Positions 34,751-56,399 of a stretch of DNA of 64,000 nucleotides are shown here, one piece after another. Position 1 is the stretch's first letter; each line of letters opens with the position of its first letter. Origin of the DNA: Bradyrhizobium japonicum USDA 6 (GTDB lineage Bacteria > Pseudomonadota > Alphaproteobacteria > Rhizobiales > Xanthobacteraceae); assembly GCF_000284375.1 (NCBI RefSeq), contig NC_017249.1, positions 8,735,001 through 8,799,000 on the forward strand. The letters run 5' to 3'. The notes under the pieces were generated by a model, which saw only the letters and a list, made by a program, of their open reading frames with translations, did no database searches and was not told the DNA's origin. The position numbers were made by a program, and so were the translations under genes.

Positions 34751-34788
34751 CGCGCTGACGCGATCGTCCAAGTCTAGTCAAATCTGAC

Positions 34789-39186: not shown

Positions 39187-39708
39187 TCAAAACTCGTTCG
39201 CGATCTTCGAGAGCATCACGATCAGGGCTTCGCGGTTGGACTGCCCGAGCAGCTCGTTCAGCCGGGACTCGTGCTTGGTGGCGACGAGCTTTTTCGCTCG
39301 GGTCAGCACGGCCTTGCCCTTGTCGGTCAAGACCAGGATGTGCGAGCGGCGGTCGTTGGTGGAGCGGATCCGCGCGCAGAGGTCGCGGCTCTCCAAATTG
39401 TCGAGCATCGCCACGAAGTTTGGGCGCAGGATGCCTAGCGTCGAGGCGATCTCGGTCTGGTTACGGCCCGGATTCTTCTCGACCAGCAGCAGCACGGAGA
39501 ACTGCGCGGGCGTGAGCTGGAGCGAGGCCATGCAGCGCAAGAAGTTCTCGAACACCTTGAGCTGCGCCCGCTTCAGCACGTAGCCGAGCTGCTCGGAGAG
39601 CTCGCCAAGCTGGAGGGCTTCGGGCTGGGCCTCGGCCGCGTCCTTGCGGCCCTTGGCCGCGTCGCCGGGCTTTTCGGAAGACTTTTCAGCGGTTTTGGAA
39701 ACGGTCAT
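39187..39708 (-). CDS. MarR family transcriptional regulator (CouR-like candidate)
   Basis: The 173-residue protein has a charged N-terminal extension of about 30 residues. The MarR fold follows, with the recognition helix in RNQTEIASTLGILRPNFVAM and the wing in RSTNDRRSHILVLTDKGKAV. It is divergent from the aromatic-type liv genes with a dyad-rich 176-bp spacer. In R. palustris a MarR protein, CouR, represses p-coumarate genes and is released by p-coumaroyl-CoA; the neighbourhood here suggests the same role. That function is inferred from context, not shown by sequence. Confidence 0.85.
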   Translation of the reverse strand: MTVSKTAEKSSEKPGDAAKGRKDAAEAQPEALQLGELSEQLGYVLKRAQLKVFENFLRCMASLQLTPAQFSVLLLVEKNPGRNQTEIASTLGILRPNFVAMLDNLESRDLCARIRSTNDRRSHILVLTDKGKAVLTRAKKLVATKHESRLNELLGQSNREALIVMLSKIANEF

Positions 39709-39767
39709 CGCCTCGTGCTCGTGATCCCGCTAAATTCGGGGCGGGTCGTCCACCCACCCTTGAAGTT

Positions 39768-39801
39768 ATATTTGATAATTGTTATGGACCATATCAAATA
39801 T
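39768..39801. promoter_or_regulatory. Operator-like dyads between marR and the aromatic ABC genes
   Basis: ATATTTGATA (39768-39777) and TATCAAATAT (39792-39801) are perfect 10-bp inverted arms with a 14-nt spacer. Within it, GTTAT-GGACC-ATATC (39781-39795) matches a dyad also seen upstream of lysR, pobA and the hydratase operon. This is the only AT-rich part of the divergent promoter and a likely site for the MarR protein. Confidence 0.65.
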
Positions 39802-39884
39802 CGTCAGCGTTTCAATGGCTGTGAGCGGACCGTCCACCGCAATTGCGGAGGCCGGTCCCGATCTTTGAGGGGGAGCGTCCGGTC

Positions 39885-40925
39885 TTGAATACCACCATCA
39901 TGCTGTTCCTGGTACAGGACGGCATCACCAATGGGGCGATCTATGCGCTGCTTGGCCTGGCGCTGGTGCTGGTGTTCGCCGTCACGCGGGTCATCCTCAT
40001 TCCCCAGGGCGAATTCGTCACCTACGGCGCGCTGACCTATGCCTCGCTGGCCGCGGGCCAGATGCCGGGCACGGCCAAGCTCGCGCTGGCGCTGGGTATC
40101 GGCGCCTTCGTGTTCGACCTGTTCGTGGCGCGCAAGGCGCTGCACGGCCGCCTGATCGTGCGCAGCCTCGTCACCAATGTCGTGCTGCCGGCCATCGTGC
40201 TGGCGCTGACCATCACCTTCGCCGCCCAGAAGCCGCCGGTGGCGGTCTGTATCGCGCTGTCGCTGGTGATCGTGGCGATGATCGGCCTCTATCTCTACCG
40301 CATCGCCTTCCAGCCGCTGGCGCACACCTCCGTGCTGGTGCTGCTGATCGCATCGGTGGGCGTCCATCTCGCGCTCCAGGGACTGGGCCTGCTGTTCTTC
40401 GGCGCCGAAGGCCAGCGCGGACCCGCCGTGCTGTCAGGCGCGTTCACCGCCGGCGCGCTGCGCTTCACCGGCCAGAGCATCACCGTTTACGCCATCACCA
40501 TCACCTTCATCGTCGGACTCTGGCTGTTCTTCGGGCTGACGCTCTACGGCAAGGCGCTGCGCGCGACCGCCGTGAACCGGCTCGGCGCCCGCCTTGCCGG
40601 CATCCGCACCACGCTGTCCGGCCAGATCGCCTTCCTGCTGGCCTCCGTCATCGGCGCGCTGTCGGGCATCATGATCGTGCCGATCACCACGCTCTACTAC
40701 GACTCCGGCTTCCTGATCGGCCTGAAGGGCTTTGTCGCCGCGATCATCGGCGGCCTCGTCAGCTATCCGCTCACCGCCGTCGCGGCGCTGGTCGTCGGCA
40801 TCGTCGAGGCGTTCTCGTCCTTCTACGCCTCCAACTACAAGGAAGTGATCGTCTTCATGCTGCTGATCCCCGTGCTGCTGCTGCGCTCGCTCGCCGCGCC
40901 CGCGGTCGAGGAAGAGAAGGACTGA
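39885..40925 (+). CDS. Liv-type ABC permease for aromatic acid uptake (LivH-like)
   Basis: The 346-residue membrane protein opens with MNTTIMLFLVQDGITNGAIY, the LivH-type first helix, and has about eight helices plus the GGLVSYPLTAVAALVVGIVEA loop. The start is TTG at 39885, with GAGGGGGAG 10 bases upstream; ATG at 39900 is an alternative without a ribosome site. It begins a three-gene unit (permease, permease-ATPase fusion, ATPase) like CouPSTU of R. palustris, which takes up phenylpropanoids. The matching binding protein is probably at 56909. Confidence 0.85.
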   Translation: MNTTIMLFLVQDGITNGAIYALLGLALVLVFAVTRVILIPQGEFVTYGALTYASLAAGQMPGTAKLALALGIGAFVFDLFVARKALHGRLIVRSLVTNVVLPAIVLALTITFAAQKPPVAVCIALSLVIVAMIGLYLYRIAFQPLAHTSVLVLLIASVGVHLALQGLGLLFFGAEGQRGPAVLSGAFTAGALRFTGQSITVYAITITFIVGLWLFFGLTLYGKALRATAVNRLGARLAGIRTTLSGQIAFLLASVIGALSGIMIVPITTLYYDSGFLIGLKGFVAAIIGGLVSYPLTAVAALVVGIVEAFSSFYASNYKEVIVFMLLIPVLLLRSLAAPAVEEEKD

Positions 40926-40930
40926 CGCGC

Positions 40931-42700
40931 ATGCAGAGCCGGCTTCCCATCCTCATCTTCGCGCTTCTCATGGCGGCGATCCCGCATCTCCCGGGCATGC
41001 CGCCGTTCTGGATCGTGCTACTCGACAATATCGGCCTTGCCGCCCTCGTCGCGATGGGCCTCGTGCTGCTCACCGGCGTCGGCGGCTTGACCTCGTTTGG
41101 CCAGGCGGCTTTCGTCGGCTTCGGCGCCTACACCACCGCGGTGCTGTCGACGGCCTATGGCCTGTCGCCATGGCTGACCTTGCCGCTGTCGCTGCTCGTC
41201 AGCGGATCGTTGGCGGTGCTGCTTGGCCTCGTCACCGTCCGTCTCTCCGGGCACTATCTGCCGCTCGGCACGCTCGCCTGGGGGCTGGGCCTGTTCTATC
41301 TCTTCAGCAAGCTGGAATTTTTGGGAAGAAACGACGGCATCTCGGCGATCCCGCCGCTGTCGATCGGTTCGTTCAAGATGCTCTCGCCCGGCTCGATCTA
41401 TTACGCGATCTGGGTTGCCGTGATCCTCTCGGCCCTGCTCACGATGAACCTGCTGGATTCCCGCACCGGCCGCGCCATCCGCGCGCTGCGGCGCGGACAC
41501 GTCGCGGCCGAAGCGTTCGGCGTGCACACGCCGCGCGCCAAGCTCCTGGTGTTCATCCACGCCGCGGTGCTGGCCGGTCTCTCCGGCTGGCTCTACGCGC
41601 ATCTTCAGCGCGCGGTGAACCCGACGCCGTTCGGCGCGCAGGCCGGCATCGAATATCTCTTCATCGCGGTGGTCGGCGGCGCCGGCTATGTCTGGGGCGG
41701 CGTACTGGGCGCGGCGATCGTCGTGGTCCTGAAGGAGGTGCTGCAGAGCTATTTGCCGCTGATCCTGCCCGGCTCCGGCCAGGTCGAGACCATCGTGTTC
41801 GGCATCATGCTGGTGGCGCTGCTCCAGCTTGCGCCCGGCGGCGTCTGGCCCTGGCTGATGTCGTTCCTGCCGGAGCGCACCAATGGCAAGAAGCCGGACA
41901 CCTCGCTGAAACTGGAGCAGCGCACCCGCGCGGCCGGCCAGTCCGGCGTCCTGCTCCAGGTCGAGAAGGCGCGAAAGCAGTTCGGCGGCGTGATCGCGGT
42001 CAACAACGTCTCCTTCGACGTGCAGGCGAAAGAGATCGTCGCGTTGATCGGACCGAACGGCGCCGGCAAGAGCACGACGTTCAACCTGATCACCGGCGTG
42101 CTGTCGGCGACCTCGGGCTCGATCTCGGTCCTCGGCAAGAAGGTCGACAGGGCGCCTCCGCAGGAGATCGTCAAGCTCGGCATCTCCCGCACCTTCCAGC
42201 ATGTGAAGCTCGTCCCTGACATGACCGTGCTGGAGAACGTCGCGATCGGCGCGCATCTGCGCGGCCATTCGGGACCGATCTCCTCGATGCTGCGGCTCGA
42301 CCGCGCCGATGAAGCGAGGCTGCTCGCGGAGGCCGCCCGCCAGATCGAGCGCGTGGGCCTCGCCGAGCAGATGCATCAGCTCGCAGGTTCGCTCTCGCTC
42401 GGCCAGCAGCGCATCGTCGAGATCGCGCGTGCGCTGTGCGTCGATCCGATGCTGCTGCTGCTCGACGAGCCGGCCGCCGGCCTGCGCCACATGGAGAAGC
42501 AGCGCCTTGCCACGCTGCTCCGCGAACTGCGCGACGGCGGCATGAGCGTGCTTCTTGTCGAGCACGACATGGGCTTCGTGATGAACCTCGCCGACCGCAT
42601 CGTGGTGCTCGATTTCGGCACCAAGATCGCGGAAGGCACGCCCGCCACGATCAAGACCAATCCCGAAGTGATCAAGGCCTATCTCGGAGTGGCGGCATGA
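40931..42700 (+). CDS. Fused Liv-type permease and ATPase
   Basis: A 589-residue fusion. Residues 1 to about 315 form a LivM-type permease (LTGVGGLTSFGQAAFVGFGA, RTGRAIRALRRGHVAAEAFG). After a charged linker (about 316-340), residues 341-589 form a LivG-type ATPase with Walker A GPNGAGKSTTFNLI, signature LSLGQQRIVEIARAL and Walker B LLLLDEPAAGLRHME. In the pim-linked liv cluster the same two parts are separate genes. It starts 5 bp after the LivH-like gene and overlaps the next ATPase gene by ATGA. Confidence 0.92.
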   Translation: MQSRLPILIFALLMAAIPHLPGMPPFWIVLLDNIGLAALVAMGLVLLTGVGGLTSFGQAAFVGFGAYTTAVLSTAYGLSPWLTLPLSLLVSGSLAVLLGLVTVRLSGHYLPLGTLAWGLGLFYLFSKLEFLGRNDGISAIPPLSIGSFKMLSPGSIYYAIWVAVILSALLTMNLLDSRTGRAIRALRRGHVAAEAFGVHTPRAKLLVFIHAAVLAGLSGWLYAHLQRAVNPTPFGAQAGIEYLFIAVVGGAGYVWGGVLGAAIVVVLKEVLQSYLPLILPGSGQVETIVFGIMLVALLQLAPGGVWPWLMSFLPERTNGKKPDTSLKLEQRTRAAGQSGVLLQVEKARKQFGGVIAVNNVSFDVQAKEIVALIGPNGAGKSTTFNLITGVLSATSGSISVLGKKVDRAPPQEIVKLGISRTFQHVKLVPDMTVLENVAIGAHLRGHSGPISSMLRLDRADEARLLAEAARQIERVGLAEQMHQLAGSLSLGQQRIVEIARALCVDPMLLLLDEPAAGLRHMEKQRLATLLRELRDGGMSVLLVEHDMGFVMNLADRIVVLDFGTKIAEGTPATIKTNPEVIKAYLGVAA

Positions 42701-43428
42701 GTGCGCTGTTGTCCGTCGCCGACGCCCATGTCGCCTATGGCAAGGTCGAGGCCGTGCGTTCGGTCTCGCTCGAGGTCGGCGCCAACCAGATCGTCACCAT
42801 CGTCGGGGCCAATGGCGCCGGCAAGACCACGCTGCTCTCCGCCATCATGGGCATCTTGCCGCTGAAAGGGCGCGTCGCCTTCGCAGGGCAAGATCTGTCA
42901 CGGCTCGACATCGAGGACCGCGTCGCGATGGGGCTCGGCCTCGTTCCAGAGCACCGCGAGCTGTTCGTGACCATGAATGTCGAGGACAATCTCGAGCTCG
43001 GGGCCTTCCGCATCGAGCGCAGCAAGGCGAAAGCCTCGATGGAGCGCGTCTACACGCTGTTCCCGCGGCTGAAGGAGCGGCGCAAGCAGTTGGCGGGCAC
43101 CCTCTCCGGCGGCGAGCAGCAGATGCTCGCAATGGGCCGCGCGCTGATGGGCGAGCCGAAGCTCTTGATGCTGGACGAGCCGAGCCTCGGCCTCGCCCCG
43201 ATCATCGTCGCCGACATCTTCCGCATCGTCACCGAGCTCCGCGCCGGCGGCGTCTCCGTGCTGCTGGTCGAGCAGAACGCGCAGGCCGCGCTGAAGATCG
43301 CGGACCAGGCCTATGTGATGGAGCTCGGCGAGTTCGTGCTCAGCGGCAAGGCCAGCGATATCGCGGCGAACGAGCGCGTGGCGGCCAGCTATCTCGGCTT
43401 CCAGCACGAAGGCGCGAGTGTGATCTGA
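42697..43428 (+). CDS. Liv-type ABC ATPase (LivF-like)
   Basis: The 243-residue ATPase has Walker A GANGAGKTTLLSAI, signature LSGGEQQMLAMGRAL, Walker B LLMLDEPSLGLAP and the LivF-like end VAASYLGFQHEG. The ATG at 42697 overlaps the fusion gene's stop by four bases. It completes the transporter encoded from 39885; no binding-protein gene lies in this unit. Confidence 0.9.
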   Translation: MSALLSVADAHVAYGKVEAVRSVSLEVGANQIVTIVGANGAGKTTLLSAIMGILPLKGRVAFAGQDLSRLDIEDRVAMGLGLVPEHRELFVTMNVEDNLELGAFRIERSKAKASMERVYTLFPRLKERRKQLAGTLSGGEQQMLAMGRALMGEPKLLMLDEPSLGLAPIIVADIFRIVTELRAGGVSVLLVEQNAQAALKIADQAYVMELGEFVLSGKASDIAANERVAASYLGFQHEGASVI

Positions 43429-43440
43429 TTTCCTGGCTGG

Positions 43441-43606
43441 CTCCTCTTCCCTCTCCCTCGTTGGAGAAGTAAGCGCGGGTAAACGTGCCGGATGAGGGGC
43501 TCTCTCCACCAATGACGACGTGGGACCATCGCCTGCGGAGAGACACCCCTCACCCCTCTCGCGGCTATGCCGCGAGCCACCCTCTCCCGCAGGGGGAGAG
43601 GGTGTA
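43441..43606. repeat. Intergenic repeat, CTCTCCC/GGGAGAG family, copy 2
   Basis: CCTCTTCCCTCTCCCTCG, GCCGGATGAGGGGC, GCGGAGAGACACCCCTCACC and CCCTCTCCCGCAGGGGGAGA are recognisable boxes shared with 20128-20295. It lies between convergent genes. Confidence 0.8.
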
Positions 43607-43620
43607 CCGTGCGAGCCGAA

Positions 43621-44256
43621 CTAGCTTTCGCTTGAAGACAGACTCGCTTTCCCCTTCAACGCCGCGACCTCCGCTTCCAGCTCCGCGATCCGTTGGTCCC
43701 TCGCCGCCAGCGCTGCCGCGACATCCGGCGCATCGAACTTCTGCGGAATGTGCTGCGGGCAGTTGGTGTCCCACGCCGCGATCTTGAACAGGATCACCTG
43801 CTCCGGGCGCGCGCGGTAGCCCTTAGGCATCAGCGACGTCGTCAGCGCCTCGTCGTCCTCGACGACGCGCGCCTCGCCCCAGATCTTCACGCGGCGGCGA
43901 TGGGCGTAGTCCATCACGAAGATATAGGCCTTGGGATTCTCGGACAGGTTTCCCTGCGTGATGTATTGCCGGTTGCCGGCATAGTCCGTGAAAGCCAGCG
44001 TCTGCTTGTCCAGCACCTTCAAAAACCCCTTCGGGCCACCGCGATGCTGGATGTAGGGCTGGCCGTCGGCCGAGGCGGTGGCGAAATAAAAGCTGTTGGC
44101 GTCAGCCAGGAACGCCGCAAGGTTCTCATCGACCTCGGTGCGCCAGCCGCGCTGCTCGGAATGGGCATAGCCTTCGCGCGATCCCTTTCGGGTCTGGATC
44201 GATTTCACCGCCGGCGTGAACGCCACGTCGCTGGCGTAGGTCTGAGCTGCCGTCAT
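43621..44256 (-). CDS. Pyridoxamine 5'-phosphate oxidase family (FMN-binding) protein
   Basis: The 211-residue protein has a split-barrel flavin-binding domain (about 25-165: ADANSFYFATASADGQPYIQ, HRGGPKGFLKVLDKQTLAFT, GNRQYITQGNLSENPKAYIF, HRRRVKIWGEARVVEDD). A C-terminal heptad-like helix (ALAARDQRIAELEAEVAALK) suggests dimer or partner contact. Such proteins are general flavin reductases or oxidases rather than vitamin B6 enzymes. It is divergent from the LysR gene, so it may be a LysR target. Confidence 0.85.
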   Translation of the reverse strand: MTAAQTYASDVAFTPAVKSIQTRKGSREGYAHSEQRGWRTEVDENLAAFLADANSFYFATASADGQPYIQHRGGPKGFLKVLDKQTLAFTDYAGNRQYITQGNLSENPKAYIFVMDYAHRRRVKIWGEARVVEDDEALTTSLMPKGYRARPEQVILFKIAAWDTNCPQHIPQKFDAPDVAAALAARDQRIAELEAEVAALKGKASLSSSES

Positions 44257-44354
44257 CGGAACATCTCCTGAAATCCCGGCGCATTCCTGCGTCTTTCGGG
44301 GTCTAAATTGGCCCTTCCGGCGACCAAAACAATCCGGCGGCTTGACACTTCATA

Positions 44355-44374
44355 ATTGCGTTATATGCAATAAT
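44355..44374. promoter_or_regulatory. LysR-type box and shared dyad upstream of lysR
   Basis: ATTGC-GTTATAT-GCAAT (44355-44371) is a perfect inverted repeat containing a T-N11-A LysR box. Shifted by five bases, GTTAT-ATGCA-ATAAT (44360-44374) matches the dyad at 39781, 47394 and 52864. A TTGACA hexamer lies at 44342-44347. The box ends only a few bases before the lysR ATG, fitting autoregulation. Confidence 0.6.
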
Positions 44375-44377
44375 ACC

Positions 44378-45262
44378 ATGGACCGCCTCGAAGCCATGCA
44401 CGTCTTCGTCACCGTCGCCGATCTGCGCGGCTTTGCGCCGGCGGCGCGCAAGCTCCAGCTGTCGCCTTCGGCCGTGACGCGGCTGATCGCGGCGCTGGAG
44501 GAGCATCTCGGCGCGCGGCTGCTGCAACGCACCACGCGGCAGGTGAGATTGACCGATGTCGGCACGCGCTATCTGGAGCGCGCGCGGCGAATCCTCGCCG
44601 ACGTCGAGGAGGCCGACGGCTCCGCGCGGGAGGAACGCAACCGGCCGAGCGGGCGTCTCGTGGTGTCAGCGCCGATCGGCTTCGGCCGGCTCCATGTCGG
44701 GCCGGTGATGACCGCCTACCTCAAGCGCTATCCCGAGGTCGCCTGCGAACTCAGGCTATCTGACCATCTGGTCAACCTCGTCGAGGATGCCGTCGACGCC
44801 GCCGTCCGCATCGGCCATCTCGCCGACTCCTCCCTCGTCGCGCGCCAGGTCGGCGAGATGCGGCGGATCGTGGTGGCGACGCCGGGCTATCTGAAGCGCC
44901 ATGGCGAGCCGAAGACGCCGGAGGCGCTGCTCGAACACCAGACCATCGCGTTCGGCCCGTCCGCGAGCTGGCGCTTCGTGCAGGACGGCCGCGACATCGA
45001 GGTCATGGTCAACCCGCGCTTCACCAGCAACAGCGCCGACGCCGCCCTGCAATATGCCGAGGCCGGCGGCGGCGTGACGCGCGTGCTGGCCTATCAGGCC
45101 GCGGAGGGCCTCAAGCGCGGGCGGCTCAAGATCGTGTTGGCGAAATACGAGCAGCCGGCGCTGCCGATCCACATCGTCTATCCGACCTCGCGCCTGCTCT
45201 CGGCCAAGGTGCGCGCCTTCATTGATTTGGTCTTGGAGATGGCCGAGTGGAAGTTTGGGTGA
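44378..45262 (+). CDS. LysR family transcriptional regulator
   Basis: The 294-residue protein has an N-terminal winged helix (MDRLEAMHVFVTVADLRGFA to LQRTTRQVRLTDVG, about 1-60) and a substrate-binding-like effector domain (about 90-290) of the DsdA/AaeR-like group common next to oxidoreductases. The ATG at 44378 matches family starts; the frame's earlier start at 44342 would place codons in the promoter. There is no ribosome site, so the transcript may be nearly leaderless. It is divergent from the flavin-binding protein. Confidence 0.9.
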   Translation: MDRLEAMHVFVTVADLRGFAPAARKLQLSPSAVTRLIAALEEHLGARLLQRTTRQVRLTDVGTRYLERARRILADVEEADGSAREERNRPSGRLVVSAPIGFGRLHVGPVMTAYLKRYPEVACELRLSDHLVNLVEDAVDAAVRIGHLADSSLVARQVGEMRRIVVATPGYLKRHGEPKTPEALLEHQTIAFGPSASWRFVQDGRDIEVMVNPRFTSNSADAALQYAEAGGGVTRVLAYQAAEGLKRGRLKIVLAKYEQPALPIHIVYPTSRLLSAKVRAFIDLVLEMAEWKFG

Positions 45263-45406
45263 TGGTCTCGTGTCCCTGACGCGCTGCAACGCGTAGCGTT
45301 GCTGCGCAGAGCCGGGACCCAGAAGGCCAGAGCATGGGCTGCGGATGGATGGGCCCCGGCTCTGCGCAGCGGCACTTCGCGCCGCACCGCGTCCGGGGCA
45401 CGAGAG
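45263..45406. repeat. Intergenic repeat, ATGGTCTCGTGTCCC family
   Basis: It begins GATGGTCTCGTGTCCCTGAC and ends CCGGGGCACGAGAGCC; an internal inverted pair GCGCAGAGCCGGGACC and GGCCCCGGCTCTGCGC forms a second stem. It separates the convergent lysR and thioesterase genes. Confidence 0.75.
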
Positions 45407-45408
45407 CC

Positions 45409-45828
45409 TTACGCCTTCTTTGGCACCACGCGGAACGTCCCGCTCGCCCGTGCGATCACAACGCCGTCGGCCTTGATCAGGCATTGCGCGAAGCAGATCG
45501 TCTTGCCGGTCTTGATCACGTCGCTCTCGATCGAACACCACTGCCCGATCTCGGCGGAGCCGACGAAATCGACCGAGAGTGAGACCGTCACGAACGAAGT
45601 GGTCCAGTTCGTCACCAGCGCGCAGCTATAGCCCATGGCGTTGTCGGCAAGCGCGGCGATGAGGCCGCCGTGGATCAAGCCACGGCCGTTGGTGTGCGGC
45701 CTTGCCAGCCGGAGGCCAATAATGACGGCCTTGTCGGTGTTCTTCGCGTAAAGCGGCTCCCAGGGTTCGGTGAGAGGGCTCTTGCGAAACAACGGCTCGA
45801 AGCCGTCGGGAATGTCGGTGTCGATCAT
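45409..45828 (-). CDS. PaaI family acyl-CoA thioesterase
   Basis: The 139-residue hotdog-fold protein has NGRGLIHGGLIAALADNAMG near residue 50, the PaaI signature containing the active-site His-Gly-Gly and Asp, and the final strand ASGTFRVVPKK. It hydrolyses CoA thioesters in the cytoplasm and would release CoA from stalled aryl- or acyl-CoA. The ATG at 45828 (MIDTDIPDGFEPL) is used rather than 45885. Placement among aromatic genes suggests, but does not prove, an aryl-CoA substrate. Confidence 0.88.
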   Translation of the reverse strand: MIDTDIPDGFEPLFRKSPLTEPWEPLYAKNTDKAVIIGLRLARPHTNGRGLIHGGLIAALADNAMGYSCALVTNWTTSFVTVSLSVDFVGSAEIGQWCSIESDVIKTGKTICFAQCLIKADGVVIARASGTFRVVPKKA

Positions 45829-45938
45829 AGCGTGCCTCGCGTTGCTGGCTGGCGCCATTGAACGCGATCTGGATGACAGTTTCACCGCCTACAAAGTTTT
45901 AAACGGAATTTGCGCAGGTGTTTGAAATGAGCGGTGCC

Positions 45939-46024
45939 GTCATTGCGAGGAGCGAAGCGACGAAGCAATCCAGACTGTCGCCGCGGAAAGATTCCTGGAT
46001 TGCTTCGCTTCGCTCGCAATGACG
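45939..46024. repeat. Intergenic palindromic repeat, GTCATTGCGAG family, copy 2
   Basis: It begins CGTCATTGCGAGGAGCGAAG and ends CTTCGCTCGCAATGACG, with imperfect arms of about 30 bp; related to the perfect copy at 15067-15148. Confidence 0.85.
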
Positions 46025-46044
46025 ATGTGGAGAGAGCACGCGAT

Positions 46045-46141
46045 GCCGTAGGGTGGGCAAAGGCGCGAAGCGCCGTGCCCACCGTCTCGCCTGGAATAGA
46101 GAAGAAGCGGTGGGCACGCTGCGCTTTGCCCACCCTACGGC
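46045..46141. repeat. Intergenic palindromic repeat, GCCGTAGGGTGGGCAAAG family
   Basis: GCCGTAGGGTGGGCAAAGGC at the left end is inverted as GCTTTGCCCACCCTACGGC at the right end, with a second inner stem (GTGCCCACC and GGTGGGCAC). Confidence 0.85.
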
Positions 46142-46156
46142 ACCAACGTCACAGTC

Positions 46157-47518
<1,362 letters not shown>

Positions 47519-47586
47519 TTAGATAACATGTTAATTAATGAGACCGGGCCATCGAAGCCCGCCGTCGAAACAGGGAGAGACGACCG

Positions 47587-48603
47587 ATGAGGAAAGCCTG
47601 TCTGGCTTTGCTGCTGGCAGCAAGCGTGAGCCCCGCGTTCGCGCAGGACAAGACCTTCGACCTGAAAGTCTCGCACTGGGTGCCGGCGTCGCATCCGCTG
47701 CAGAAATCGCTGGAAGACTGGGTGGCCGCGGTGAACAAGGATTCCGGCGGCACGATCACCGGCAAGGTGTTTCCCGCCCAGCAGCTCGGCAAGGCGTTCG
47801 ACCATTACGACATGGCACGCGACGGCATCGCCGACGTCACCTATGTCAATCCCGGCTATCAGCCCGGCCGCTTCCCGATCGTCGGCGCCGGCGAATTGCC
47901 GTTCCTGATCTCGGACGCCAAGGGCGGCTCGATGGGGCTGGACGCCTGGTACCGCAAATATGCCGAGAAGGAGATGAAGGACGTCAAATACTGCCTCGCC
48001 TTCGTCCACTCGCCCTCCTCCTTCCATTCCAAGACCAAAAAGATCGTGATGCCGGAAGACGTGAAGGGCCTGAAGATCCGTCCCGCGCACGCCACCATGG
48101 CGAATTTCGTCACCTCGCTCGGCGGCACCAACGTGCAGTCCTCCGCGCCCGAAGTGCGCGACATCATCGAGCGCGGCGTCGCCGACGGCGTCACCTTCCC
48201 CTGGGGCTCGCTGGTGCTGTTCGGCATCGACAAGGTGACCAAGTACGACATGGAGGCGCCGCTCTACACCACGACCTTCGTGTTCGTGATCAACAAGGAC
48301 AAGTACAACGCGATGTCCGACAAGCAGAAGGCCGCGATCGACAAGAACTGCTCGACCGAGATGGCCGGCATGGTCGGCGAGCATTGGGGCAAGTTCGAGG
48401 ATGCGGGCATCGACAAGGTCAAGGCGGAATCAAATCATGAGGTCTACAAGCTGACACCCGAGCAGACCGCCGCCTGGAAGAAGGCCGCCGAGCCGCTGGT
48501 CAAGACCTGGGGCGAAGGCGCCAAGAAGGCCGGCGCCGATCCCGACGCCGCGTTGGCGGATCTGAAGGCCTCACTGAAGAAGTACAACGCGCTGGCGGAG
48601 TAG
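47587..48603 (+). CDS. TRAP transporter substrate-binding protein (DctP family)
   Basis: The 338-residue periplasmic receptor has a signal peptide MRKACLALLLAASVSPAFAQ. The DctP core includes LKVSHWVPASHPLQKSLEDW, GGTITGKVFPAQQLGKAFDH, the conserved arginine region VKGLKIRPAHATMANFVTSL and GVADGVTFPWGSL. GGGAGAGA precedes the ATG. It is divergent from pobA and upstream of DctQ- and DctM-type membrane genes, as in TarPQM of R. palustris, which takes up lignin-derived aromatics. Transport of 4-hydroxybenzoate or cinnamates is a contextual inference. Confidence 0.88.
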   Translation: MRKACLALLLAASVSPAFAQDKTFDLKVSHWVPASHPLQKSLEDWVAAVNKDSGGTITGKVFPAQQLGKAFDHYDMARDGIADVTYVNPGYQPGRFPIVGAGELPFLISDAKGGSMGLDAWYRKYAEKEMKDVKYCLAFVHSPSSFHSKTKKIVMPEDVKGLKIRPAHATMANFVTSLGGTNVQSSAPEVRDIIERGVADGVTFPWGSLVLFGIDKVTKYDMEAPLYTTTFVFVINKDKYNAMSDKQKAAIDKNCSTEMAGMVGEHWGKFEDAGIDKVKAESNHEVYKLTPEQTAAWKKAAEPLVKTWGEGAKKAGADPDAALADLKASLKKYNALAE

Positions 48604-48624
48604 GCGCCGCGGCGAAAGAAGCAC

Positions 48625-48647
48625 GGTGGCGAGGACATCTCGCCGCC
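48625..48647 (+). terminator. Possible attenuator hairpin after the TRAP receptor gene
   Basis: GGTGGCGAG and CTCGCCGCC pair (one G-T) around GACAT, followed by GTTGTTCT. It could stop part of the transcripts so that the receptor is made in excess over the membrane subunits. Confidence 0.4.
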
Positions 48648-48689
48648 GTTGTTCTGCAGGCGGGTTGCACGGTGAGGAGCGCACGCCGC

Positions 48690-48840
48690 TTCCTCCCCCT
48701 CTCCCCGCCTGCGGGGAGAGGGTTGGGGTGAGGGGGAGTCTCCGCGGGGGCGGTGACAGTTGGACTCGCGGAGAGTCCCCTCACCCGGAATCCGCGCTTC
48801 CAGCGCGAATTCCGGCCTCTCCCCGCACGCGGGGAGAGGC
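48690..48840. repeat. Intergenic repeat, CTCTCCC/GGGAGAG family, copy 3
   Basis: CCCCTCTCCCCGCCTGCGGG, GTTGGGGTGAGGGGGAGTCT, CGCGGAGAGTCCCCTCACCC and CCTCTCCCCGCACGCGGGGA are its boxes. It sits inside the TRAP operon, between the receptor and small-permease genes. Confidence 0.8.
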
Positions 48841-48896
48841 AAAGTGCGCGGCGACATCTGAATCAAGAGAATGACCTCACGCGATAGGACTCTCCC

Positions 48897-49406
48897 ATGA
48901 AGCGCTCCTGGATGGACCGCATCATCGACACGATCGAATGGATCGCGGCCGGCTTCGTCGGCATCGTCGCGCTCGACATCTTCCTGTCGGTGCTGCTGCG
49001 CAACACGCTGAACTACTCGATCCCCGATTCGTTCGATATCGGCCGCATGTTGCTCGGCATCCTCATCTTCTGGGGCATCGCCGCGACGTCCTATCGCGGC
49101 ACGCACATCACGGTCGATCTCGTCTGGGGCAATGTCGGACCGCGCTACCAGCGCTGGATCGACGTGTTCGCAACGCTGGTGCTGCTGTTCGTCGTCACCG
49201 TGCAGACCTGGACGCTGTTCGACAAGGTGCGCGGCACCTACAACGACAACGTCCAGACCTTCGACATGCACATGCCGACCTGGCCGTTCTTCGCGGTCGC
49301 GTGGATCGGTGATGCCGCGGCCGTGCTGCTGATCGCGATCCGCACCTATCGCCTGATCTTCCATCCCGAAGACATGCACGATCCCAAATTGAAGGCGACG
49401 GAGTAA
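48897..49406 (+). CDS. TRAP transporter small permease (DctQ family)
   Basis: The 169-residue inner-membrane protein has four hydrophobic segments (about 12-35, 50-68, 90-110, 130-150) and the family block GILIFWGIAATSYRGTHITV. It stabilises or couples the large permease. Its stop is 2 bp before the large-permease gene, so these two are tightly coupled, while the receptor lies 290 bp upstream across a repeat. Confidence 0.88.
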   Translation: MKRSWMDRIIDTIEWIAAGFVGIVALDIFLSVLLRNTLNYSIPDSFDIGRMLLGILIFWGIAATSYRGTHITVDLVWGNVGPRYQRWIDVFATLVLLFVVTVQTWTLFDKVRGTYNDNVQTFDMHMPTWPFFAVAWIGDAAAVLLIAIRTYRLIFHPEDMHDPKLKATE

Positions 49407-49408
49407 TC

Positions 49409-50728
49409 ATGAGCACCGATGCCGTCGCCTTAATCGGCTTCGTTTCCCTGTTCGTCCTGATGCTGCTGCGCGTGCCCGTCGGCATGGCCATGGGCCTCGT
49501 CGGCGTGTCCGGCTTCGCCTATCTCGTCAACGGGACGGCGGCGCTTAAGCTGGTCGGCCAGACCTCGATGCGCACGGTCACAGACTACACCTTCGGCGTC
49601 ATCCCGATGTTCCTGCTGATGGGCTCCTTCGTCAGCAATTCTGGCATGAGCCGCGAGCTGTTCCGCGCCGCCAACGGCTTTGTCGGGCATCTGCGCGGCG
49701 GGCTCGGCATCGCCACCGTCGGCGCCTGCGGCGGCTTTGCCGCGATCTGCGGCTCCTCCGTCGCGACCGCCGCGACCTTCTCCGCCGTCGCCTATCCCGA
49801 GATGCGCCGCTTCGGCTATCCGCAGTCCTTCGCCACCGGCGTGATCGCGGCGGGCGGCACACTGGGCGCGATGCTGCCGCCCTCCACCGTGCTCGCGGTC
49901 TACGGCATCATTACCGAGCAGGACATCGGAAAGCTCTTCATCGCCGGCATCATTCCGGGTCTGCTGGCAATGACCATGTACATGATCACGATCTTCCTGA
50001 TCGGTCATTTCCGCCCGGACTTCCTGCCCAAGGGCAAGGTGCTGCCGTGGCGCGAGCGCTTTGCGGGCCTGAAGGACATCTGGGCGCCGGTCTTGCTGTT
50101 CGTCTTCGTCATCGGCGGCCTCTACGGCCTGCCGTTCCTGCCGCGCTTCACGCCGACGGAGGCCGGTGGCGTCGGCGCCGCGGGCGCCTTCATCATCGGC
50201 GTGGTCACGGGGCGGCTCGACCGCGAGAAGATATTGGCCTCGCTGCTGCAGGCGACGCGCACCGCGGCCGCCGTGTTCACGGTGCTGATCGGCGCGCTGA
50301 TCTTCGGCTACTTCCTCACGGTGACGCAGACGCCGCAGAAGGTCACCGAATTCCTCACTGGTCTCGGCCTCGGCCCCTACGGCGTGCTGGCGCTGATCAT
50401 GGTGATGTATCTCGTGCTCGGCTGCCTGATGGACGCCATGGCGATGATCATCCTCACCGTGCCGATCATCTTTCCCGTGATCACGCATCTCGGGTTTGAC
50501 CCGATCTGGTTCGGCGTCATCATCGTGATGACCGTCGAGCTCGGTCTGATCCATCCGCCGGTCGGGATGAACGTCTTTGTCATCAAAAGCGTGGTGAAGG
50601 ACGTCTCCTTCTCCACGATCTTCAAGGGCGTGATTCCCTTCGTGGCGACGGATCTGGTGCGGCTGGTGATTTTGATCGCGTTCCCGCTGCTGGCGACGTG
50701 GCTGCCAACACGGATGATGGCGCAATGA
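49409..50728 (+). CDS. TRAP transporter large permease (DctM family)
   Basis: The 439-residue transport subunit has about 12 membrane segments. Typical blocks are VPVGMAMGLVGVSGFAYLVN, IPMFLLMGSFVSNSGMSREL, FAAICGSSVATAATFSAVAY and a C-terminal GLIHPPVGMNVFVIKSVVKD. It moves substrate with a sodium gradient and completes the receptor/DctQ/DctM set. DUF3237 follows by 12 bp in the same direction. Confidence 0.92.
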   Translation: MSTDAVALIGFVSLFVLMLLRVPVGMAMGLVGVSGFAYLVNGTAALKLVGQTSMRTVTDYTFGVIPMFLLMGSFVSNSGMSRELFRAANGFVGHLRGGLGIATVGACGGFAAICGSSVATAATFSAVAYPEMRRFGYPQSFATGVIAAGGTLGAMLPPSTVLAVYGIITEQDIGKLFIAGIIPGLLAMTMYMITIFLIGHFRPDFLPKGKVLPWRERFAGLKDIWAPVLLFVFVIGGLYGLPFLPRFTPTEAGGVGAAGAFIIGVVTGRLDREKILASLLQATRTAAAVFTVLIGALIFGYFLTVTQTPQKVTEFLTGLGLGPYGVLALIMVMYLVLGCLMDAMAMIILTVPIIFPVITHLGFDPIWFGVIIVMTVELGLIHPPVGMNVFVIKSVVKDVSFSTIFKGVIPFVATDLVRLVILIAFPLLATWLPTRMMAQ

Positions 50729-50740
50729 CGAGGTGAAGCG

Positions 50741-51202
50741 ATGACCACACCCGCGCTCGAGACCAAATACGTCTTCACCATCACCGCAAAGATTGGCGAC
50801 GTCGTCACCGTCGGCGAGACCGGCATTGGGGTCCGCCGCATCATCCCGATCATCGGCGGCGAGGTGACGGGCGCGATCACGGGCAAGGTGCTGCCGTTCG
50901 GCGCCGACTTCCAGACCATCCGCCCCAACGAGCTGATCGATCTCGAAGCGAAATACGCCTTCGAGACCGATGACGGCGCCATCGTCTATGTCGAGAACAA
51001 GGGCATGCGCTTCGGCCCGGTCGAGCTGCTGCACAAGCTGAAGCGCGGCGAGCCGGTCGATCCGAAGCTGATTTACTTCCGCACGGTCCCAAGATTCGAG
51101 ACGGGGCACGACAAATATCGCTGGCTGATGCAGCACATTTTTGTGGCCTCAGCCGCACGCCATGCCGACCGCGTCGTGATCGACGTGCATCAGGTGATGT
51201 GA
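50741..51202 (+). CDS. DUF3237 domain protein
   Basis: The 153-residue cytosolic protein has no signal or membrane segment. It opens ALETKYVFTITAKIGDVVTV, then GVRRIIPIIGGEVTGAITGK, and ends YRWLMQHIFVASAARHADRV, which is the DUF3237 pattern (a small beta-barrel). Family members often sit in catabolic operons for aromatic or other acids, with no established reaction that I can name. It is 12 bp behind the TRAP permease with a GAGGTG ribosome site, so it is likely part of that operon. Confidence 0.85.
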   Translation: MTTPALETKYVFTITAKIGDVVTVGETGIGVRRIIPIIGGEVTGAITGKVLPFGADFQTIRPNELIDLEAKYAFETDDGAIVYVENKGMRFGPVELLHKLKRGEPVDPKLIYFRTVPRFETGHDKYRWLMQHIFVASAARHADRVVIDVHQVM

Positions 51203-51240
51203 GGGTCACGCATGCCGCGATTGTGGCGGTGCCGAGCGCA

Positions 51241-51864
51241 CTACTTCGCCGCAGCGATCCAGTCGGTGGCCTTTACCCGCGCGACCAGTTTTGGCTGTCC
51301 TGACGGATCGGGCTTGTAGACGAACGCCTCGCCTTCCTGCACATCGCCGGCGTCCTTGCCGAAGGCGTCGGCAAAGTTGGTCTTGTGGGTGACCAGGATT
51401 GTATCGGTTGCCCGGGACGGAGGCGTGTTGACGAGGTCGCGCACCGCGGCGCCCGCCTTGCGATTGGCGCCGCCCGGGTTCGCCATCGCCGATGCGCTGC
51501 CCCCACTGTCGGTCAATGCGTCGACCGCCTGAACGTCCCGGCTGGACAACAGTTTTCCCGTCTCGACGGCGCGGTTGAGCTTGCTGGTGAGCACAAGACC
51601 GATGGGAATGCCGAGCTTCCTGACGGCCCGGCCGACGTCCGCAGCCATCTCGCGCCCGTTCGCGCTGAGCTGACGCTGCGCCGTCATGTCGGTGACGTTG
51701 AGGGGATAGACGTCCTTTTGACTGTCGTCCGTTGCGCCATGGCGGAACATGATGACATAGCCACCGCCCCGGAGCTCGCTCACCAGCGCATCGGTATCGA
51801 CCGCTCCTGCCGGATACAAAGGGGCCAGAAAGACCAGGAGAGCGATGCAGGCAATCTTCCTCAT
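51241..51864 (-). CDS. Secreted histidine phosphatase family protein
   Basis: The 207-residue protein has a signal peptide MRKIACIALLVFLAPLYPAG. The phosphatase core follows: the phospho-histidine motif is FRHGATD (about residues 40-46), with QLSANGREMAADVGRAVRKL, LTSKLNRAVETGKLLSS and a second histidine in ILVTHKTNFADAFG. It is close to phosphoglycerate-mutase-like and SixA-type enzymes but exported, probably to the periplasm. It is convergent with the DUF3237 gene and unlikely to belong to the aromatic pathway. Confidence 0.85.
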   Translation of the reverse strand: MRKIACIALLVFLAPLYPAGAVDTDALVSELRGGGYVIMFRHGATDDSQKDVYPLNVTDMTAQRQLSANGREMAADVGRAVRKLGIPIGLVLTSKLNRAVETGKLLSSRDVQAVDALTDSGGSASAMANPGGANRKAGAAVRDLVNTPPSRATDTILVTHKTNFADAFGKDAGDVQEGEAFVYKPDPSGQPKLVARVKATDWIAAAK

Positions 51865-52087
51865 TGGACACCTCCGATGAGCCGGCCATCAGTCCACGCA
51901 CCCAAATGCCCGCGGCGGCGCCGAAAAGCTTTGCCGGGCGCTTGCGGTTTCCTTGATTGTTGCTCCAGATTCGCCCTTTTCGGCGGCGAGGCCCGCGGTC
52001 AGCAACCCTGAATCCGCCTTTGACCCAGAGCTCGGCTGGTTTCAGGATGGTCCGGCGCAAGGTTATGCAGACCACGGGAGTCCCACC

Positions 52088-52768
52088 ATGTCTCTTATGG
52101 CTTCCAGCGAACCAGCTCCCCGACACACCCTCGACTCCGCCGAAATGGGCGCCATCGCTCATCTCTACCGCGGCGAGGTCTATCGATCGACGATCTGGCG
52201 AACGCGGCTCGACAACACGACCAATTGGGCGATCGTCACGATGGGCATCGCACTGTCGACGACCTTTTCGAGCCCGGAGGCTTCGCCTCTGCCGCTCGTA
52301 CTCGTCGGACTGCTCCTTGCCGTGTTCCTTGGTATGGAGGCGCGGCGTTATCGCTATTTCAATGTCTGGCGTGCCCGGGCTCGTTGGCTGGAGAGGAATT
52401 TCTATGCGCCAATCTTCACCGGTGAAGCGCACGATGACAGCTGGAAGGATGTTCTCGCGCGCGACTACACTGCGCCCCGCCATCACATTTCGTTTGTCCG
52501 CGCAGCCGGACGGCGGTTGCGTCGCAACTACGTCTGGATCCTCGCCATCCAGGCAACCGCCTATTACGGCAAGATTGCAATCCATCCGACACCTGCGTTG
52601 ACCTTGACGGAACTTATTGATCGCGCCGCCGTCGGACCGATTCCCGGCTGGATCGTTCTGATCATGGGCTTTGCCTACAATTTCGGGTGGCTGGCGTTCG
52701 CGCTCGGCACGATGTGGCTCGACCAACGCGAGCACGGGACCAAGGGCGACCAGGTGGCGATGGGTTGA
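52088..52768 (+). CDS. DUF2270 membrane protein
   Basis: The 226-residue protein fits the DUF2270 family: EMGAIAHLYRGEVYRSTIWR near residue 20, then two hydrophobic segments (about 48-82), an FNVWRARARWLERNFYAPIF block, and two more near the C-terminus. It is expected in the inner membrane; function unknown. The ATG at 52088 is followed by a typical N-terminus, whereas the frame back to 51953 is not conserved-looking. Its direction matches the hydratase operon, but a 129-bp gap with an operator-like site separates them. Confidence 0.82.
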   Translation: MSLMASSEPAPRHTLDSAEMGAIAHLYRGEVYRSTIWRTRLDNTTNWAIVTMGIALSTTFSSPEASPLPLVLVGLLLAVFLGMEARRYRYFNVWRARARWLERNFYAPIFTGEAHDDSWKDVLARDYTAPRHHISFVRAAGRRLRRNYVWILAIQATAYYGKIAIHPTPALTLTELIDRAAVGPIPGWIVLIMGFAYNFGWLAFALGTMWLDQREHGTKGDQVAMG

Positions 52769-52863
52769 TGACGCGGAGCGGTTAGCCGTTCCTGGGGGAG
52801 CCGAGACGAGTGTAGCAGCCCCGCCGTCAGGGAGGACTGCTCCGTCTTGACTCCCCAAAATTC

Positions 52864-52878
52864 GTTATACAACATAAC
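52864..52878. promoter_or_regulatory. Operator-like dyad upstream of the hydratase operon
   Basis: GTTAT-ACAAC-ATAAC lies 20 bp before the hydratase ATG and matches the dyads at 39781, 44360 and 47394. Its place between a TTGACT at 52847 and the start codon suits a repressor site. Confidence 0.6.
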
Positions 52879-52897: not shown

Positions 52898-53707
52898 ATG
52901 ACACAGGGAAACGCCGAGACCGCTGACGCGGGCGCCTCCGGGCTTTTGAGGATCGAGCGGGCGGACCGGGTTCTGACCGTGGGCCTGAACCGGCCGGCCA
53001 AGCGCAATGCGCTCAATGACGGCATTATCCTCGAAATCGGCGAGTGCTTTGCCTCCCTGCCCGAGGATATCGGCGCGGTCGTCATCCACGGCATCGGCGA
53101 TCATTTCTCCAGCGGTCTCGACCTCTCCGAGCTCCAGGACCACGACGCGACCGGCGGCCTCCTCCATTCCCAGATGTGGCACCGGGTGTTCGACCGCATC
53201 CAGTACAGCCGCGTGCCTGTGATCGCCGCGCTCCGGGGCGCCGTGATCGGCGGCGGGCTGGAGCTTGCCTGCGCCGCCCATATCCGCGTCGCCGAGCCCT
53301 CGACCTATTTCGCCCTGCCGGAAGGGCAGCGCGGCATCTTCGTCGGCGGCGGCGGCTCGGTGCGGCTGCCGCGACTGATCGGCGTTGCCAGGATGATGGA
53401 CATGATGCTGACCGGCCGCGTCTACAGCGCGACCGAAGGCGCCTCCTACGGCTTTACGCAATATGTGACGGAGGCCGGCAACGGGCTCGGCAAAGCTCTG
53501 GAGCTTGCGACCAAGGTTGCCGCCAACGCACCGCTGACGAACTTCGCCGTGCTCCAGGCGCTGCCGATGATCGCGGAGGCCAATCCGCAGGCCGGCCTGT
53601 TGATGGAATCGCTGATGGCAACGGTTGCGCAGAGCGACAAAGAGGCGAAACGCAGGATCCGCGAATTCCTCGAACACAAGACCGCAAAGGTGAAGCCGAA
53701 GTCATGA
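52898..53707 (+). CDS. Enoyl-CoA hydratase/isomerase family protein
   Basis: The 269-residue crotonase-fold enzyme has NRPAKRNALND near residue 31, HFSSGLDLSEL, the oxyanion-hole GGGLELACAAHIRVAE with Glu122, and LPEGQRGIFVGGGGSVRLPR with Glu142. Both catalytic glutamates of a hydratase are present. The sequence around Glu142 differs from that of hydroxycinnamoyl-CoA hydratase-lyases as I know them, so simple hydration is more likely than retro-aldol cleavage. An AAGGA ribosome site precedes the ATG at 52898. It overlaps the ligase gene by ATGA. Confidence 0.88.
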   Translation: MTQGNAETADAGASGLLRIERADRVLTVGLNRPAKRNALNDGIILEIGECFASLPEDIGAVVIHGIGDHFSSGLDLSELQDHDATGGLLHSQMWHRVFDRIQYSRVPVIAALRGAVIGGGLELACAAHIRVAEPSTYFALPEGQRGIFVGGGGSVRLPRLIGVARMMDMMLTGRVYSATEGASYGFTQYVTEAGNGLGKALELATKVAANAPLTNFAVLQALPMIAEANPQAGLLMESLMATVAQSDKEAKRRIREFLEHKTAKVKPKS

Positions 53708-55587
53708 GCGGACAGCCGTCCTCTTCCAGCATGGAGCGCGGCGCGAGCACTTCCCCGCTGCGGCCCATTTCGTTCGGCGATCCCGTCGTCAACATCGAGC
53801 GGCGCGACGACGGCACGATTTACCTGCGGCCCAAGCAGCCGCTCGGCGACTATCCAGTCCGCCTCACTGACCGCCTGCATCACTGGGCGACGACGACGCC
53901 GGACCGCGTCTTCATGGCCGAGCGCGAAGGCGGCCGCGGCTGGCGCAAGATCACTTACGCCGAGTTGCTCGCCGCCAGCCGGCACATTGCCTCCGGCCTG
54001 ATTGCGCGCGGCCTGTCGGCGGAGCGGCCGGTCGTCATCCTGTCAGGCAATTCGATCGACCACGCGCTGCTCGCGTTCGGCGCGTTCTATGCCGGAATTC
54101 CGTTCTGCCCGGTGTCGCCGGCCTATTCGCTGGTGTCGAAGGATTACGGCAAGCTCTCTTACCTGATGAAGCTGCTGACGCCCGGCCTCGTCTTCGCCGA
54201 GGACGCCGGCAAGTTCGCGGATGCGCTCGCCGCCAATGTCTCTGATGGCACCGAGATCGCCGCGTCCTGGGGCAGCGTGCCGGGCCGCGACGTCACCCTG
54301 CTCGCCGACCTCATGGCGACGCCGATCCGCAGCGATCTCGACGAGGTGCACGGCAAAATCGGCCCGGACACCATCGCAAAATTCCTGCTGACGTCGGGCT
54401 CGACCGGCAACCCCAAGGCCGTCATCAACACCCAGCGCATGATCTGCGCCAACCAGGTGATGTTGCGCGAGACGCTCGCCTTCCTCAAGGACGAGCCGCC
54501 CGTCATCATCGACTGGCTGCCCTGGAATCACACCTTTGGCGGCAACCACAATATCGGCCTGACGCTCTACAATGGCGGCTCGATGTATCTCGACGCCGGC
54601 AAGCCGGTGCCGGGCGGCATCGAGGAGACCGTGCGCAATCTCCAGGAGATTTCGCCGACGGTCTATTTCAACGTCCCCAAGGGGTATGAATCGCTGCTGC
54701 CTTATTTGCGCGACGACCAGGGCCTGCGCGCAAAGTTCTTCGACCGGCTGCACGCGATGTTCTTCTCGGGCGCAGCACTATCGCCGTTCGTCTGGAACAG
54801 CCTCGACGAGCTCGCGGTGAAGGAAAAAGGCTACCGCGTGCCGATGCTGACCGGCTTGGGCGCGACCGAGACCGCGCCGTTCTTCATGTCGGTTAATCCG
54901 CGCACCAGCCGCTCCGGCCATGTCGGGTTGCCCGTGTCGGGCAATGACGCCAAGCTGGTGCCGAACAACGGCAAGATGGAGGTGCGGGCCAAGGGGCCGA
55001 ACGTGATGCCCGGCTATTGGCGCCAGCCCGACATCACCGCAAAATCCTTCGACGAGGAAGGATTTTACAAGATGGGCGACGCGCTCAAGCCCGTCGATCC
55101 CGACGATCTCAACGCCGGCTTCGATTTCGACGGCCGCGTCAGCGAAGACTTCAAGCTCGGCAGCGGCACCTGGGTCAGCGTCGGCCCGCTGCGTGCGCGC
55201 TTCGTCGCGGCCTGCGCGCCGCTGGTGCGCGACGTCGTCATCGCCGGCATCAACCGCGACGAAATCTCGGCGCTGGTGCTGCTCGATCTCGACGGCTGCC
55301 GGCTGATCAACCCGACGCTGCCGGCCGACGATCTCACCGTCACCGCCCGCGACCGGCTGGTCCGTGAAGCCTTCCGCGAGCGCCTGACGCGCTTTCTGTC
55401 TTCGGCCACCGGTTCCTCGACGCGGATCACGCGCGCGATCCTGCTGGATACGCCGCTCTCGATCGACAAGGGCGAGGTCACCGACAAGGGCTCGATCAAC
55501 CAGCGCGCGGTGCTCGAGCATCGCGGCGCGCTGATCGAGGAGCTCTACGCTGCCAATCCATCAGACCGTGTGATATCGGTCGGGTAA
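53704..55587 (+). CDS. Feruloyl-CoA synthase-type ligase
   Basis: The 627-residue ANL-family CoA ligase is longer than fatty-acyl types because of a family N-terminal region ([20 protein letters not shown], typical of feruloyl-CoA synthetases). The ATP motif [20 protein letters not shown] lies near residue 230, [16 protein letters not shown] follows, and the C-terminal hinge includes [20 protein letters not shown]. It would activate ferulate, p-coumarate or related acids with CoA and ATP. It is translationally coupled to the hydratase. Confidence 0.88.
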
Positions 55588-55612
55588 GAAACCATCGCTA
55601 CAGGAGAACGCC

Positions 55613-56374: not shown

Positions 56375-56399
56375 GGCGCAACGAAAGCAGGGCCATCGC

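Follow-up and report, generated by a model that had tools for sequence, protein, structure and literature searches.

Hydroxycinnamate repressors and the locus of Bradyrhizobium japonicum USDA 6

Several MarR-family proteins that regulate aromatic metabolism have been described. We compare them here with a 64,000-nucleotide stretch of the Bradyrhizobium japonicum USDA 6 chromosome (positions 8735001-8799000 of 9,207,384 bp; "the window"), in which a 15-bp dyad, RTTAT-N5-ATAAY, recurs in the promoters of a cluster of putative hydroxycinnamate genes. In Rhodopseudomonas palustris, couAB and genes of an ATP-binding cassette (ABC) and a tripartite ATP-independent periplasmic (TRAP) transporter are reported to be under the control of CouR (PMC3610893), for which a binding sequence of 31 bp has been given (PMC9594313). 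The hydroxycinnamate route of this organism is presented as non-beta-oxidative in PMC3610893 and as beta-oxidative in PMC10458429. CouR of Rhodococcus jostii RHA1 is described as a MarR repressor released by p-coumaroyl-coenzyme A (CoA), with an inverted repeat that has a 5-bp spacer (PMC4737184), but its reported identity to R. palustris CouR is only ca. 25 to 36% (PMC4737184, PMC9594313), and its box is cATTGA-N5-TCAATg. In RHA1, the last deacetylation step is attributed to CouO, of the amidohydrolase superfamily, and yields the aromatic acid (PMC4737184). The inducer is given as a ligase-made hydroxycinnamoyl-CoA both for RHA1 (PMC4737184) and for R. palustris (PMC10458429). HcaR of Agrobacterium fabrum (Atu1422) is reported as a MarR repressor that controls, in a beta-oxidative hydroxycinnamate route, the ligase, the hydratase, the dehydrogenase, and the enzyme of the last step (PMC7797058); there, however, the vanillate step is under a second regulator, Atu1419. 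Saro_0803 of Novosphingobium aromaticivorans, a MarR relative (NF053777, 90 bits, under the 200-bit cut-off), also has an inverted repeat over a predicted -10 box, but its operator is given as GCAATA-N6-TATTGC and its ligand as resveratrol (PMC10046596).

The MarR-family protein of the window (Table 1) matched the PDB entry for CouR over its full length, the next best match reaching only 7.5e-10, and the recognition-helix stretch ILRPNFVAMLD is identical in both. We take 6c28, together with 6c2s and 6c9t, to be R. palustris CouR (RPA1794). The gene, couR, is divergent from a hydroxycinnamate ABC operon and is clustered with couAB, couP, and TRAP genes, a layout that we compared with the one in PMC3223731. 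From these comparisons and those below, RTTAT-N5-ATAAY is very probably the operator of this CouR, which would be released by p-coumaroyl-CoA; the likely binder is thus the MarR protein and not the LysR-family protein encoded in the same cluster. A related genome, G108, provides a bridge to the R. palustris regulon: its CouR is 82.6% identical to 6c28, its gene order fits RPA1780-1794 as given in PMC3223731, and its dyad is perfect upstream of couA and between pobA and the TRAP genes, the couR/ABC spacer having a tandem with one mismatch. The promoters of the CouR targets reported for R. palustris are those with the dyad in this like-ordered cluster. Compared with that regulon as reported, the operator of B. 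japonicum also stands before pobA (in the spacer shared with the TRAP genes), pcaHG, and an amidohydrolase gene.

A CouR operator is an element of a known kind, while pobA, the lineage-specific capture of pcaHG, and the distant CouO-like amidohydrolase gene are apparently new as members. We found no treatment of a CouR operator before pobA or pcaHG in the open-licence literature, judged by title and start of abstract, and the five operator strings occur in no relevant open-licence paper. The operator would be defined at the sequence level for a bacterial family and used to extend the regulon. It would also be an example of a repressor regulon that has extended to later steps of its pathway, with relevance to plant-root phenol metabolism and p-coumaroyl-CoA biosensors.

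Distribution of the dyad

The original prediction had listed four dyads (39781, 44360, 47394, and 52864), all of which are present, but had overlooked a better fifth copy at 39765. Since this copy lies one base from that at 39781, the couR/ABC spacer holds a tandem of 31 bp, overlapped by a 10-bp inverted repeat with a 14-bp gap (39768-39777 / 39792-39801). The binding sequence reported for R. palustris CouR has the same length as this tandem. Searching the window with RTTAT-N5-ATAWY gave nine strand-matches at five places, whereas 100 dinucleotide shuffles averaged 0.06 and never reached nine. The statement that other spacers of the window have no equivalent was also correct, as up to one mismatch to RTTAT-N5-ATAAY yielded only the same five places. 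Given that the pattern was read off the sites being tested, and that dinucleotide shuffles of a GC-rich window underestimate AT-rich spacers, we relied on independent tests, using the reversed pattern as a control for site counts.

Across the 9.207-Mb genome, RTTATN5ATAAY occurred at seven places versus two for the reversed pattern. Four are within the 13-kb stretch of the cluster, one is before pcaHG, one is before an amidohydrolase gene, and the seventh, at 2035431, is probably due to chance. The pattern being derived from the window, the matches at pcaHG and the amidohydrolase gene were the first independent support. The bare core TTATN5ATAA was not enriched (12 versus 10 reversed). Its additional places (1271749, 3130423, 7062135, 7988847, and 8554467) and 2035431 had no recognised aromatic neighbour in translated open reading frame (ORF) starts, no family searches having been made there, and these six are treated as background.

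Among Bradyrhizobium-type loci (the best 80 of 109), a perfect site was found at most 200 bp before couR in all 80, and the form GATAT-N5-ATAAC, which is the 39781 copy on the other strand, in 74. Where the gene was in reach, dctP had a perfect site in 52 of 53 loci and pobA in 47 of 48; the dctP site was also kept in all six loci without pobA in reach. One locus (L031, 95% identity) comes from a record titled Frankia sp. RB7, which is probably mislabelled or contaminated.

The comparison was then extended to 119 genomes of the family, classified as CouR-bearing (26 genomes, match of at least 66% identity), CouR-less (70 genomes without CouR match, of which 46, hand-picked mostly for completeness, were used in gene tests), and 23 with CouR-like matches of 39 to 51%, which were kept out of the contrast. 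The CouR-less set takes in genomes with more distant CouR-like proteins (G023 and G037). CouR-bearing genomes had 146 sites against 43 reversed-pattern matches (Wilcoxon test, P = 1.4e-5), CouR-less genomes had 129 against 117 (P = 0.21), and the site densities of the two sets differed (P = 3e-8).

Along similar lines, the candidate operator was present in the promoter of couR itself and in those of its putative targets. The couR spacer had a perfect site in 22 of the 26 CouR-bearing genomes and one a single mismatch off in the other four. All 24 genomes having couA (no match was found in two) showed a perfect site before it, starting 27 to 65 bp upstream. Copies of pobA in the cou cluster had a perfect site in 18 of 22 cases and a one-mismatch site in four, versus none of eight pobA genes outside the cluster (four unlinked and four paralogous, fetched out of ten, the other two being paralogues). 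Only 1 of 15 couA homologues in CouR-less genomes had a perfect site, a weak control since these are just 56 to 62% identical; the genome concerned, G023, has a MarR gene with 42% CouR-like identity in the same cluster. The 88 instances collected (54 unique) gave the consensus RTTATATNATATAAY, with arms fixed by the search itself and variable centre and flanks. The comparative data thus support the proposal of the original prediction that uptake (ABC and TRAP), side-chain degradation (couAB), and ring hydroxylation (pobA) would form one regulon; of the conservation that it expected in orthologous spacers, the couR, couA, pobA, and TRAP sites are kept, and the lysR copy is poorly kept. As a separate observation, genes for a CouR-like protein (41%), CouA, CouB, and the amidohydrolase stand together in G037 (L299:7681-11736) without the dyad, perhaps under a related regulator with another operator.

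Directly upstream of the couA-promoter site, a TTGAC stretch was counted by eye in 23 of 24 cases, which suggests that the operator spans the -10 region and would exclude RNA polymerase. In the uninduced state, a dimer of CouR would occupy the palindrome, and with it the core promoter, and block transcription of couR/couSTU, couA(B...P), pobA, and the TRAP genes, and may repress in the same way pcaHG and the CouO-like amidohydrolase gene elsewhere on the chromosome. One MarR dimer is expected per 15-bp palindrome, and the couR/ABC tandem could accommodate two, which would tighten autoregulation. When p-coumarate or a related acid enters the cell, CouB would form the CoA thioester, this would release CouR, and uptake, side-chain removal, ring hydroxylation, and ring cleavage would be turned on together. 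Repression and the p-coumaroyl-CoA ligand are taken from work reported on other CouR proteins (PMC3610893, PMC10458429); we infer binding by this CouR, the promoter overlap, the operon structure, and the induction of pcaHG and the amidohydrolase gene.

Sites before pcaHG and a distant amidohydrolase gene

The chromosome has two pcaHG sets. In the one at 994898, the site starts 68 bp before pcaH, in a group of thiolase (pcaF-like), intradiol dioxygenase, pcaH, and pcaG genes; no regulator was found among the neighbours identified by family, and a MarR gene lies ca. 6 kb beyond pcaG. The other set, near 7751798, has no RTTATN5ATAAY site and is located beside a divergently transcribed LysR gene, with a second pobA ca. 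3 kb away (7747996-7752469). Judging from layout only, the 994898 set appears to be tied to CouR and the 7751798 set to its own LysR regulator. The second pobA and second pcaHG make up an apparent duplicate 4-hydroxybenzoate/protocatechuate route with separate control.

We fetched 23 pcaH loci in CouR-bearing genomes, of which 18 are orthologues (at least 76% identity). A perfect site was present in seven of these, 59 to 70 bp upstream: every one of the five genomes from the window's genus has it, as do two of the four from genus g40; the difference from CouR-less pcaH loci was significant (Fisher test, P = 0.015). None of the five less similar loci (53 to 74%) had a perfect site, and three of them have a one-mismatch string at -166 to -170. 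No pcaH match was found in the five genomes with CouR nearest to 6c28 (81 to 88%; genera g28 and g6). The CouR-marked pcaHG is followed by a gene for a methyl-accepting chemotaxis protein (L015:6456-8147), and if the genes are cotranscribed, chemotaxis would join the regulon.

The amidohydrolase gene is preceded by a dyad starting 44 bp upstream. Among CouR-bearing genomes, 17 of 25 had the site 25 to 59 bp before this gene, including three of the five with CouR nearest to 6c28, and none of the three homologues in CouR-less genomes had a perfect one. The gene itself was found in 25 of 26 CouR-bearing versus 3 of 46 CouR-less genomes (57 to 66% identity in the latter), and in two of these three (G117 and G037), it adjoins couA, or couA and couB. 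Its only match in the PDB was an uncharacterised protein. One of the 120 relatives listed, with 76% identity, is named 4-hydroxyphenyl-beta-ketoacyl-CoA hydrolase in its source. Four plasmid loci were opened out of 41 records. Two, from Rhizobium plasmids, have a 71 to 72% identical gene next to feruloyl-CoA synthase, hydratase, short-chain dehydrogenase (SDR)-type, and MarR genes, and in one of them the homologue is named 4-hydroxyphenyl-beta-ketoacyl-CoA hydrolase in its record. Neither of the remaining two is a hydroxycinnamate cluster: one combines genes for biotin carboxylase, HAD hydrolase, and CoA ligase and in this resembles the acetovanillone genes described in PMC9618137, and the other, in Rhodococcus opacus, has SDR, AMP-binding, and MaoC genes. 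The two Rhizobium clusters showed no RTTAT-N5-ATAAY dyad within one mismatch. In both, the spacer between the ligase and hydratase genes (L303:4611-4726 and L304:4588-4725) contains a different repeat with arms TTTGTTTACA and GTAAACAA, a possible operator of their diverged MarR protein.

This context, together with the SDR gene behind couB, suggests that the CouA/CouB route is beta-oxidative and ends in 4-hydroxybenzoate. This acid is the substrate of PobA, and what PobA forms is in turn the substrate of PcaHG. The CouO-like hydrolase bears on whether the hydroxycinnamate route in the Rhodopseudomonas/Bradyrhizobium group is beta-oxidative or non-beta-oxidative. We propose, with about as much to be said for as against it, that the CouR operator of Bradyrhizobium has extended beyond the cou cluster and now marks one of the two pcaHG sets. 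A single CoA-thioester sensor would then govern the whole path from hydroxycinnamate uptake via pobA to ring opening, the second set keeping its LysR regulator, and the mark on the distant amidohydrolase gene would imply a beta-oxidative route for CouA and CouB instead of aldehyde-forming cleavage. As for genus g26 (L271-L274), all four genomes keep the amidohydrolase (89%) without the operator and have perfect couA and pobA sites, a possible loss or replacement of control.

Weighing of the assignment and genes of the cluster

Several observations weigh against the assignment to CouR or its full extent. The related genomes are not independent. Within the genus, whole spacers are conserved (mean, 0.85 to 0.91), which keeps the sites from standing out at this depth (ranks 17/107, 27/231, and 22 and 32/162), and for this reason we placed the weight on the comparison between genera. 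The couR spacers with a single mismatch include all three CouR-bearing genomes of g28, one of the two genera with CouR closest to 6c28. The 23 genomes with intermediate CouR-like matches had a weaker excess (53 sites versus 34 reversed), and the full site at 2035431 is without evident link. No dyad within two mismatches was detected by pattern scan before couP (55500-56950), which is presumably transcribed from the couA promoter. Of the 60 Bradyrhizobium-type loci that have lysR, only 1 had a perfect copy before it, and 47 had a copy with one mismatch; at the family level, 13 of the 20 LysR genes examined (fetched out of 23 with matches of at least 62% identity) had nothing within one mismatch. 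This dyad may simply be the -10 region of lysR, and we keep it as a weak member. Lastly, 11 of the 18 pcaH orthologues lack the site, one of 21 CouR-less pcaH loci has a perfect one (at another distance), and the amidohydrolase gene is without its site in 8 of 25 genomes (all four of g26, both of g6, and two of three of g43).

These last absences, with the pcaH site confined to two genera, would fit a narrower regulon, in which CouR acts at couR/ABC, couA, and pobA/TRAP, and a different regulator, or none, uses the sites at pcaHG and the amidohydrolase gene. We consider this unlikely, as both sites share the same consensus and fall in narrow distance windows, perfect sites are as scarce in CouR-less genomes as given above for both genes, and the amidohydrolase gene co-occurs with CouR.

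LysR-type regulators recognize a box of the form T-N11-A. RTTAT-N5-ATAAY includes it, one dyad directly precedes lysR, and LysR matches of at least 62% identity are present in 23 of the 26 CouR-bearing genomes, so we considered the LysR-family protein as the binder. However, the lysR promoter is the least conserved of the targets, and the regulator is absent or distant in some site-bearing genomes: at 1e-60, no LysR match was found in G093 or G007, and those in G059 reach only 45 to 47%, while the couA sites are perfect in all three and G093 also retains the couR and TRAP sites. In addition, 20 of the 80 Bradyrhizobium-type loci have the couR site without lysR in the fetched stretch (some stretches being short). 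The LysR candidate was rejected as very improbable.

Least credible of all is that these are chance AT-rich, -10-like palindromes, recognised because they were looked for; the unenriched core, the TATAAT-like stretch in several sites, and a pattern built from the sites themselves would agree with it, but it is contradicted by couA, which has a perfect site upstream in 24 of 24 genomes where ca. 0.00016 would be expected per 400-bp promoter at background density. The CouR operator reading also stands against the concern, raised with the original prediction, that the pattern might hit random AT-rich promoters as often as aromatic genes, given the contrast between CouR-bearing and CouR-less genomes and the eight pobA genes without a site.

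Table 1. Candidate operators and genes of the putative CouR regulon (window positions, except for the last row, on the chromosome)
Feature	Position	Strand	Remarks
couR, MarR-family repressor, CouR orthologue	39187-39708	-	PDB 6c28 'CouR', E 5.7e-68, residues 1-173
Primary candidate CouR operator of couR/ABC spacer, GTTATATTTGATAAT	39765-39779	.	full palindrome, 1 bp from 39781 copy, best fit in the spacer
Second, imperfect operator copy, GTTATGGACCATATC (...ATATC)	39781-39795	.	16 bp centre-to-centre from 39765 copy
CouSTU-type ABC uptake genes	39885-43428	+	permease 39885-40925; fused permease/ATPase 40931-42700; ATPase within ORF 42436-43428
PPOX-type flavoprotein	43621-44256	-	divergent from lysR
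Dyad GTTATATGCAATAAT	44360-44374	.	ends 3 bp before lysR ATG; weakest member
LysR-family regulator	44378-45262	+	best NCBIfam matches YafC and AaeR, both under cut-off
4HBT-type thioesterase ORF downstream of pobA	45409-45885	-	57% identical gene adjoins pobA in G108
pobA, 4-hydroxybenzoate 3-monooxygenase	46157-47341	-	TIGR02360, 707 bits, above cut-off
Candidate operator of pobA/TRAP spacer, ATTATATCATATAAT	47394-47408	.	conserved before dctP and pobA
TRAP transporter, TarPQM-type	47587-50728	+	dctP 47587-48603; dctQ 48897-49406; dctM 49409-50728
DUF3237 gene after TRAP genes	50741-51202	+	same cluster in G093 and G108
Candidate operator of couA promoter, GTTATACAACATAAC	52864-52878	.	19 bp before couA ATG
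couA, enoyl-CoA hydratase family	52898-53707	+	hydroxycinnamoyl-CoA hydration role inferred from cluster
couB, acyl-CoA synthetase	53821-55587	+	ligase role inferred; PRK12582, 718 bits, under 777 cut-off; start codon not settled
SDR, candidate beta-hydroxyacyl-CoA dehydrogenase	55613-56374	+	family match; role inferred
4HBT-type thioesterase	56400-56819	+	family match
couP, ABC-system substrate-binding protein	56909-58060	+	PDB 3tx6/4jb0/3ukj group, E down to 4e-202; Peripla_BP_6
CouO-like amidohydrolase gene, unlinked to cou cluster	1.82 Mb		PF04909, 205 bits

Several genes of the cluster (Table 1) are shared with G093 and G108, in which the ABC genes beside couR are 71 to 79% identical and couB is 74 to 77% identical to that of the window. 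The PDB entries matched by couP are presumably of the CouP type. One in-frame stop is reported in the pobA of three CouR-bearing genomes (G024, G065, and G087; L238, L248, and L253). Upstream of couR, the window also has three consecutive genes for Peripla_BP_6 substrate-binding proteins (33419-37576).

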